Shown piece after piece: positions 31,905 to 33,485 of a stretch of 45,338 bases of DNA. Both the position numbers and the translations under genes were made by a program. The stretch lies in NCBI GenBank assembly GCA_019118505.1, contig DWYU01000144.1, positions 1 through 45,338 of the forward strand, written 5' to 3'. The stretch's first letter is position 1. The number at the start of each line of letters is the position of its first letter. Source of the stretch: Candidatus Oscillibacter excrementavium (GTDB taxonomy: Bacteria; Bacillota; Clostridia; Oscillospirales; Oscillospiraceae). The notes beneath the pieces are model-generated. The model was not told the origin of the DNA. It saw nothing but the letters and a program-made list of their open reading frames with translations, and searched no databases.

Positions 31905-32268
31905 TGGTGGAGGTGAGGGGAATCGAACCCCTGTCCGAAAGCACTTTAACGGGACTTTCTCCGGGCGCAGACGGTTATTGCGGGAGTCTTTCTCCCTGTT
32001 CCCCTCCTCCCTGGCAAGCCGTCACGCCAGGAAGTCAGGTGAGAGTCATCATGCGTGGGCGGGGCAACTCTTACCCGCCGCACGGACGCCACATCAACGA
32101 CGCCTTCCCCGGTCTGTGGCCACCCCGGTTCAGACGGCCGCCTTTAATTAGGCAGCAATAGCAACTTGTCTGTTGTTATTTGATTTATAAATTGCCCGTT
32201 TTATGGCGGTCAGGCGCCGCCGCCCGCTGGTCCCGCCTCCATACCCCCGTCGAAACCGGTACACCCCC
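31905..32268 (-). ncRNA. ssrA: tmRNA (10Sa RNA)
   Basis: 5' GGGGGTGTACCGGTTTCGACGGGGG; 3' GGACAGGGGTTCGATTCCCCTCACCTCCACCA; acceptor pairing GGGGGTG/CACCTCC; internal tag ORF 32195-32148 GCA...TAA = AIYKSNNNRQVAIAA. Confidence 0.95.
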
Positions 32269-32280
32269 CTGTCGTCGGGA

Positions 32281-32623
32281 CAAACTGCGCTCCACTCGCT
32301 CCCGGCTCTGCCGAGAGCGAGCAACGCTCCGTTGTCCCTCCTCCTCCCATCGCAAACGCTTCGCTGGTTTGTGATGGGAGCCCTGTAAAGAGAAAACAAA
32401 CTGCGCTCCGCTCGCTCCCGGCTCTGCCGAGAGCGAGCAACGCTCCGTTGTCCCTCCTCCTCCCATCACAAACGCTTCGCTGGTTTGTGATGGGAGCCCT
32501 GTAAAGAGAAAGCAAACTGCGCTCCGCTCACTCCCGGCTCTGCCGAGAGTGAGCAACGCTCCGTTGTCCCTCCTCCCATCGCAAACGCTTCGCTGGTTTG
32601 CGACGGGAGACCTGGGGTTGGAA
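32281..32623. repeat. Tandem repeat array: two 116-bp units, one 111-bp unit, then a degenerate fourth start
   Basis: Unit starts CAAACT(G)CGCTCC at 32281, 32397, 32513; degenerate start CAAACTATGCTCC at 32624; each unit has two inverted repeats. Confidence 0.95.
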
Positions 32624-32678
32624 CAAACTATGCTCCAGGTTGTGTCCCTGCTGGGATATTTGGCAGGATGCCAAAGGA

Positions 32679-32716
32679 AATTGTAACACACTCCAATGTC
32701 GGAATGTGTTACAATT
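32679..32716. repeat. Inverted repeat just 3' of the SDR gene
   Basis: AATTGTAACACA...TGTGTTACAATT, 12-bp arms plus inner TCC/GGA pairing. Confidence 0.85.
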
Positions 32717-32726
32717 CCATGACATT

Positions 32727-33485
32727 TCAGGTTTTTGTGAATTTCACCATCAGCTTCACCGGCGTGACCTTGGCCAGCAGCCGGTAGAATTTGTAAAACA
32801 GCCGGGGCGTGTAGATGGTCCGGCCCGCCTTGGCGGCCCGCAGGGCCCCCTCCGCCACCCGCACCTGGTCGCAATAGGGCAGCAGCTCAAAGGCCGGAGA
32901 CCGGCCGGCGATGTTGCCCACCTCCAGGAACTCTGTCTTCATGGGGCCTGGGCAGACCGCTGTGACCGAGATCTCCCTGCGCCGCAGCTCTTCACTGAGT
33001 CCCACGGTGAAGGAGGACACATACGCCTTGGTGGCGCCATACACCGTCATCCGGGGCGTGGGACAGAAAGCGGCAATAGAGGAGGTGCTGAGGATATGGG
33101 CCCCCGCCGGCATATAGGGGATGACCAGGTTGGTCACCGCCGTCAGGGCCCGGACGTTCAGGTCCACCATCCGGGTCTGGAGGTCTGTCCTCGTCTCCCC
33201 CATCAGGCCCAGATAGCCGCAGCCGGCGTTGTTGATCAGCAGCCGCACCTCGGGCTTTTCCTCCGCCAGTTTCGCCTCCAGCGCGGTAAAGGAGGCGGGG
33301 TCACTCAGGTCCATGGGGAGGCAGACCGTCTCCACCCCCACCATCTCCCGGGCGACCTCTTCCAGCCGGTCCTCCCGCCGGGCGATGAGCCAGCAGCACG
33401 CTATGTCCGGAAACACATCCGTCAGCTGGCGGGCAAACTCCCGTCCCAGGCCGGAGGACGCGCCGGTGATGATGGCCGTCTTCAT
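32727..33485 (-). CDS. SDR family oxidoreductase
   Basis: TAIITGASSGLGREFARQL, NNAGCGYLG, YGATKAYV. Confidence 0.93.
   Translation of the reverse strand: MKTAIITGASSGLGREFARQLTDVFPDIACCWLIARREDRLEEVAREMVGVETVCLPMDLSDPASFTALEAKLAEEKPEVRLLINNAGCGYLGLMGETRTDLQTRMVDLNVRALTAVTNLVIPYMPAGAHILSTSSIAAFCPTPRMTVYGATKAYVSSFTVGLSEELRRREISVTAVCPGPMKTEFLEVGNIAGRSPAFELLPYCDQVRVAEGALRAAKAGRTIYTPRLFYKFYRLLAKVTPVKLMVKFTKT

Follow-up and report, generated by a model that had tools for sequence, protein, structure and literature searches.

Immediately upstream of the tmRNA gene (ssrA) of Candidatus Oscillibacter excrementavium lies an array of near-identical, hairpin-forming repeats. What are these repeats, and how did they come to abut a stable RNA gene so exactly? 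We analyzed the array within a stretch of 45,338 nucleotides, which we call the window, and followed its repeat through related genomes. The original prediction, made from the sequence alone, had recognized the array, its hairpins and its place beside ssrA; the orientation of the units, their mobile nature and the signature of their insertion had been missed.

The array in front of ssrA

The features of the locus are listed below in window coordinates. R1 is a covariance model that was built from a 19-sequence alignment (A1) and a hand-derived structure.

31905..32268, minus strand: ssrA (tmRNA); Rfam RF00023, 134 bits
32270..32379, minus strand: unit 1, abutting ssrA, with H2 hairpin, AGAGGA-type linker, H1 hairpin and GACGA tag; R1, 113.8 bits, rough E-value 5.6e-24
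32272..32276, minus strand: GACGA tag at the end of unit 1 (CGTC on the other strand), separated from ssrA by 3 nt; from sequence
32277..32338, minus strand: H1 of unit 1, with outer stem GGGACAA/TTTGTCCC, GGA-type 3x3 internal loops and inner stem; from sequence and conserved structure
32345..32379, minus strand: H2 of unit 1, with 12-13 bp arms and apex CCA-GC-GAA-GC-G; from sequence and covariation
32386..32495, minus strand: unit 2, a tandem copy without GACGA tag, followed by CTTTACAGGGC; R1, 98.2 bits
32502..32608, minus strand: unit 3, a tandem copy; R1, 82.4 bits
32624..32650, minus strand: remnant of one more unit, truncated to the outer H1 stem; from sequence
32680..32728, minus strand: promoter-like block upstream of the array, GTCA..GTAACACA..TGTGTTACAAT, of the extended -10 type and with a dyad; from conservation at ssrA loci
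32727..33485, minus strand: short-chain dehydrogenase-like gene, ending just before the promoter-like block; open reading frame named from sequence features

TRF detects a tandem array at 32280-32614 with a period of 116, 2.9 copies and 94% matches, which bears out the predicted 116-bp period; the array consists of three 116 bp copies and a truncated fourth. The degenerate fourth start that had been proposed at 32624 does belong to a copy, but this copy is reduced to a remnant of the outer H1 stem. Since Rfam places ssrA on the minus strand, the array lies upstream of the gene, in its leader; read along that strand, the order is the short-chain dehydrogenase-like gene, the promoter-like block, the truncated remnant, units 3, 2 and 1, and ssrA. 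The array does adjoin the tmRNA 5' end, as predicted, but the gap is 1 nt in the register shared with relatives, not 12 bp. Unit 1 ends ...GTTTGTCCC-GACGA-CAG, after which ssrA starts with GGGGGTGTACC, and within the array the GACGA tag is found only in this ssrA-adjacent unit. Identity is 98% between units 1 and 2 and, over 105 nt, 91% between units 2 and 3, which indicates that the array grew by tandem duplication. An assembly artefact was ruled out, as the copies differ and relatives have the same arrangement.

The predicted hairpins H1 and H2 are present, as are their paired substitutions; H2 of the third copy also has a broken pair that had been overlooked, GCGACGGGA opposite TCCCATCGC, with A opposite C. 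Folding of the 361-nt array region beats shuffled sequence by a wide margin on the two strands (z = -10.2 and -10.6), and such strong folding on either strand is expected from long inverted repeats. A 229-aa minus-strand open reading frame at window 32185-32874 spans the whole array and could lead gene callers to predict a spurious protein at this place. The tmRNA itself (31905-32268) was missed by ARAGORN and found in full by Rfam.

At 23 of 23 ssrA loci examined in the genus, a block GTCA..GTAACACA..TGTGNTA..T with an extended -10-like end stands upstream of the gene, 39-411 nt away, and units, where present at ssrA, lie between this block and the mature 5' end. We infer from its conservation that the block at 32680-32728 is a promoter; given its place between block and gene, the array is probably transcribed as leader of the pre-tmRNA. 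In the genus members examined, a conserved dyad GTAACACA..TGTGTTAC (window 32680-32728) overlaps the putative ssrA -10 region and could be a regulator site.

Fold and distribution of the repeat

The unit is about 110 nt long and has two hairpins and a fixed end, GACGA. The arms of H2 (12-13 bp) are free in sequence yet complementary, and its apex CCA-GC-GAA-GC-G is conserved. An AGAGGA-type linker leads to H1, which has an outer stem, where a U or C is bulged, GGA-rich 3x3 internal loops with 2-bp steps between them, and an inner stem. The tag GACG (CGTC on the other strand) lies next to H1 in 211 of 230 units.

That selection acts on the fold had been proposed from the array itself. Three near-identical copies alone are insufficient proof of this; homologues supply it. 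Across 19 units, 93.2% of cells at the 35 pairs are paired, two-sided changes occur at 28 pairs, and covariation reaches 0.57, against 0.21 for shuffled and 0.08-0.16 for slid controls. Two further alignments were fitted to the model and are thereby biased toward the structure, although slid controls still drop to 33-46% paired: 90 family-wide units (94.3% paired, 33 pairs with two-sided changes, covariation 0.60) and 23 units from elsewhere in the class, outside the family (93.8%, 34 pairs, 0.67). Overall, two-sided changes are found at 28-34 of 35 pairs, with shuffled covariation near 0.2; palindrome correction during replication can also be a source of such changes. Family-wide, 75 of 87 units retain a U.G wobble in the inner stem, which is less well conserved across the class; its retention favors RNA over a DNA cruciform as the folded molecule.

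The guess that the repeat belongs to a dispersed family proved right. Matches to R1, whose E-values are rough, were found in 75 of the 86 genomes from the genus, in 224 of 301 from the family (91 of 106 genera) and in 62 of 391 from the class (44 of 223 genera). Many genomes have tens of copies, and one of them (G018) has at least 38. In the window's own genome, BLASTN had suggested a single locus, whereas the structure model found at least 12 clear copies and one doubtful one, so a DNA search alone misleads. Carriers in a pattern scan were Oscillibacter, Dysosmobacter, Pseudoflavonifractor, Flavonifractor, Intestinimonas, Lawsonibacter, Colidextribacter, Agathobaculum and one Mediterraneibacter; cultured strains that have the unit include Pseudoflavonifractor phocaeensis An858, P. 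gallinarum DSM 107456 and Flavonifractor sp. An10. Most of the genomes are metagenome assemblies, and copies often lie at contig ends. The phage and plasmid collections searched gave zero matches to the repeat. As predicted, no known RNA family accounts for the unit: at gathering as well as relaxed cut-offs, Rfam matched only the tmRNA. Nor did a search of the open-access literature turn up a description of a two-hairpin GACGA family.

Some copies occur in peculiar surroundings. One and the same unit copy, with identical displayed flanks, is found in six differently named assemblies (L280, L283, L288, L309, L329, L333), which suggests either that a larger element brought it in horizontally or that the assemblies are contaminated. 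At three loci (L198, L349, L351) a parS-like or Noc-like palindrome, TTTCACGTGAAAC, directly follows the unit. In G018, inverted unit pairs form the ends of noncoding elements of 730-900 bp (L121, L122, L124, L131), which have the outer sequence AATGGGGGGTGCATC in common and contain more palindromes.

Positions at RNA ends and gene ends

The GACGA end points into stable RNA genes. Our sample of units was drawn from the best-scoring matches, so that context frequencies are biased, and its loci are partly non-independent. In this sample, all 16 tRNA and tmRNA genes that ARAGORN detected in the interval from -8 to +60 nt around the 3' end of a unit lie at -3 to +1. Rfam adds further tmRNAs, 5S (L015, L334) and 23S (L205) genes, all at -2 to +1, and, judged by sequence, two more 5' ends stand at the unit end, those of another 23S (L356) and of rnpB (L345). 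Units in rRNA operons precede tRNA-Lys, tRNA-Glu, 5S or 23S, varying by species. Where units lie antisense to an RNA gene, the tag abuts the complement of the CCA 3' end (GACG|TGG); this is the case at a tRNA-Gly of the window's own genome (L101), at L207, L347, L357 and L358, and at the tmRNA in L012, L016, L061 and L359. Mature 23S and 5S 5' ends and CCA ends belong to processed RNA, and this is the main reason why we prefer a joint made at the level of RNA. The enriched positions at RNA ends could partly reflect sites that selection tolerates. Three units (L167, L170, L197) lie inside the RNase P RNA, and in L167 and L197 this RNA matches the full Rfam model end to end.

At the 3' ends of protein genes the order is P-Q-R-stop-[complement of P|Q]-about 10 nt-unit-GACGA-Q-R-stop. 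An exact duplication of the gene 3' end, 25-115 nt long, starts at the tag in 17 of 168 distinct units, compared with 0.25% when flanks are swapped; one of the 17 is the array of the window itself, and several have their host gene in common. The host protein gene stays intact, because it is its 3' end that is duplicated on insertion. In 10 of the 17, a 9-18-nt reverse complement of the intact target lies upstream of the unit, usually 5-12 nt before it, against a background of 2.7% at random sites and 8.8% at other loci's sites; it is absent in the remaining 7, and at ssrA none was seen by eye. The longest perfect matches are 19/19 at tpiA (L295) and 18/18 at L362. Host genes confirmed by Pfam encode SMC, NAD synthase, ketol-acid reductoisomerase, TelA, flagellin, an exonuclease-type nuclease, triosephosphate isomerase, SRP54, phosphoglycerate kinase and MnmG. 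Units are in sense orientation in the protein-gene cases read by eye, and L362 is apparently antisense to a tRNA. Open reading frames are a poor guide to orientation and gene context here, because GC-rich sequence yields spurious ones that traverse the units. Tandem modules of gene end plus unit occur at L020, L262, L267, L273 and L349.

Filled and empty sites can be compared between relatives. In the window's own genome the smc site (L220) is empty, and a telA-like gene (L099) is filled. At smc, units are present in G018, G024, G046, G004, G061, G025 and G050, with decayed pieces in G049 and G069. At filled smc sites the complementary stretch pairs with the target at 12-14 of 14 positions and at a constant distance of 82-86 nt, compared with scattered weak matches only at empty sites. 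The nadE gene has the same pattern of filled, empty and decayed sites, and there the stretch tracks changes of its target (GACTGG/CCAGTC, GATTGG/CCAATC, GGGGACTGG/CCAGTCCCC). As the direct repeats permit clean loss, presence and absence stand for gain or loss, not for recent gain alone. The copies at ssrA may date far back and have been passed on vertically.

How the repeat may spread, and what it resembles

The explanation that we favor, by a little over even odds, is that the array consists of tandemly amplified copies of a two-hairpin mobile element of Clostridia, about 110 nt long, which sits at the mature 5' end of ssrA and probably spreads through RNA. The element would be transcribed within the tmRNA precursor, from which RNase P would cut it off. 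Its RNA, ending in GACGA-OH, would be joined to, or templated from, the end of a cellular RNA, namely the 5' end of tmRNA, tRNA, 5S, 23S or RNase P RNA, or in antisense a CCA end; alternatively, the joint would be made at an mRNA site that pairs with the short complementary stretch just upstream of the element. The joined molecule would then be copied back into the chromosome, with the gene 3' end being duplicated at protein genes. An RNA intermediate fits the fixed end, the joints at mature RNAs, the sense bias, the target-complementary stretch, and host genes that are expected to be highly expressed. One may speculate that the ssrA copy is a source, since release by RNase P at ssrA would leave exactly a GACGA-type end.

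Neither of the two enzymes we searched for is a consistent companion of the element. RVT_1 reverse transcriptases occur in 33 of 86 genomes of the genus and are absent from several with high copy numbers (G018, G046, G041, G059, G014, G015); the Y1_Tnp (HUH) transposase occurs in 29 of 86 and is absent from the copy-rich G018, G046, G059 and G013. Absence from many copy-rich genomes led us to reject either one as general partner.

That some such genomes lack RVT_1 also speaks for an explanation at the level of DNA, in which the unit is a palindrome like the CGTC-tagged REPs, moved by a structure-specific transposase that acts on single-stranded DNA hairpins; the ends of RNA genes would then be chosen because they are hairpin bases in DNA too. 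The units are palindromic, their end tag is the CGTC tag of known REP families (PMC3733652), and the unit pairs of G018 bound whole noncoding elements. However, the Y1/HUH transposase is missing from many high-copy genomes, the insertion positions match CCA ends, past the acceptor stem, the U.G wobble and the 3x3 loops are conserved, and the description of REPs (PMC3733652) is without long duplications or inverted target copies. We regard this explanation as rather unlikely, but it weighs more with us than the following two. Units lie upstream of ssrA in many species, between the promoter-like block and the gene, and might thus be a functional component of ssrA, namely a leader RNA aiding tmRNA expression or processing, with the other copies being relatives with similar jobs. 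This is improbable, as some relatives have no unit at ssrA (L044, L051), and as units are also found at tRNA, 5S, 23S and rnpB ends, in antisense, and in or after unrelated protein genes. About equally improbable is an intron-like or guide-directed element, whose target-complementary stretch still serves a purpose once inserted, for instance in excision or re-insertion. The stretch does span a junction P|Q resembling joined exons, it co-varies with the nadE target, and tandem modules exist; but only some loci have it, no ribozyme family in Rfam matches, and the gene is intact either way. For want of an Rfam match we also dropped a group II intron and an integron attC-like element, for the latter of which attC boxes were compared by eye.

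The mobile RNA-borne element that we favor has partial counterparts among known repeats. The nearest, CGTC-tagged REPs (Di Nocera 2013; PMC3733652), which include RPE-4/RPE-6 and dRS3, measure 20-40 bp and have a single stem of 8-9 bp, a loop of 4-5 and a CCA tail; they come from five phyla, Firmicutes not among them, are also found inside genes, and are described without a dedicated transposase or mention of target duplications. Our repeat is likewise palindromic, dispersed and of high copy number, with an unpaired CGTC at one end and no dedicated transposase. It differs in having two hairpins with 35 pairs over about 110 nt, in its positions at mature RNA ends, in its long gene-end duplications and in lacking the CCA tail, the equivalent of which (TGG at the untagged end, CCA on the other strand) occurs in only 4 of 230 units. 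With BOX, RUP, SPRITE and bacterial MITEs (PMC3049150) it shares small size, strong folding and a likely effect on neighboring genes where co-transcribed. MITEs have terminal inverted repeats and target duplications (PMC3049150); here, in contrast, single units begin with an H2 arm and end in GACGA, and the duplications are 25-115 nt long instead of short and fixed. GTAG REPs with RAYT are also small palindromic repeats in many copies, but the tag here is GACG, and many high-copy genomes are without Y1_Tnp. SINE-like elements, which move by target-primed reverse transcription, have a fixed 3' insert end and duplications of variable length. The target duplication and fixed 3' end at gene ends, together with the empty smc site, are alike; the repeat is unlike SINEs in being bacterial and 110 nt long, and no partner reverse transcriptase of RVT_1 type was found. 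Thus none of the REP and MITE families compared matches, and we call the family a small palindromic repeat outside the described families, since it has the REP tag but differs in size, fold, tail and insertion habit.

The authors who described the CGTC family (PMC3733652) name as unsolved how REP-like repeats manage to spread when they lack a transposase. The footprint of the GACGA family is unusually explicit, with units exactly at RNA ends, duplicated gene ends, stretches complementary to the target and empty sites to match the filled ones, so that the mechanism is testable in culturable gut bacteria. It might even be a new class of bacterial mobile element, although we think this less likely than not: a short structured RNA would join its GACGA end to mature RNA ends, or to mRNA sites that its own 9-19-nt complementary guide selects, and would be copied to DNA with no reverse transcriptase of its own in the genome, harmlessly duplicating gene ends. 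In its hosts, a single repeat upsets how rRNA operons, the leaders of tRNA and tmRNA and the 3' ends of genes are annotated across Clostridia, and the tmRNA of carrier species may have a long structured leader. The fixed-end insertion pattern suggests a previously unrecognized way for a tiny sequence to spread.
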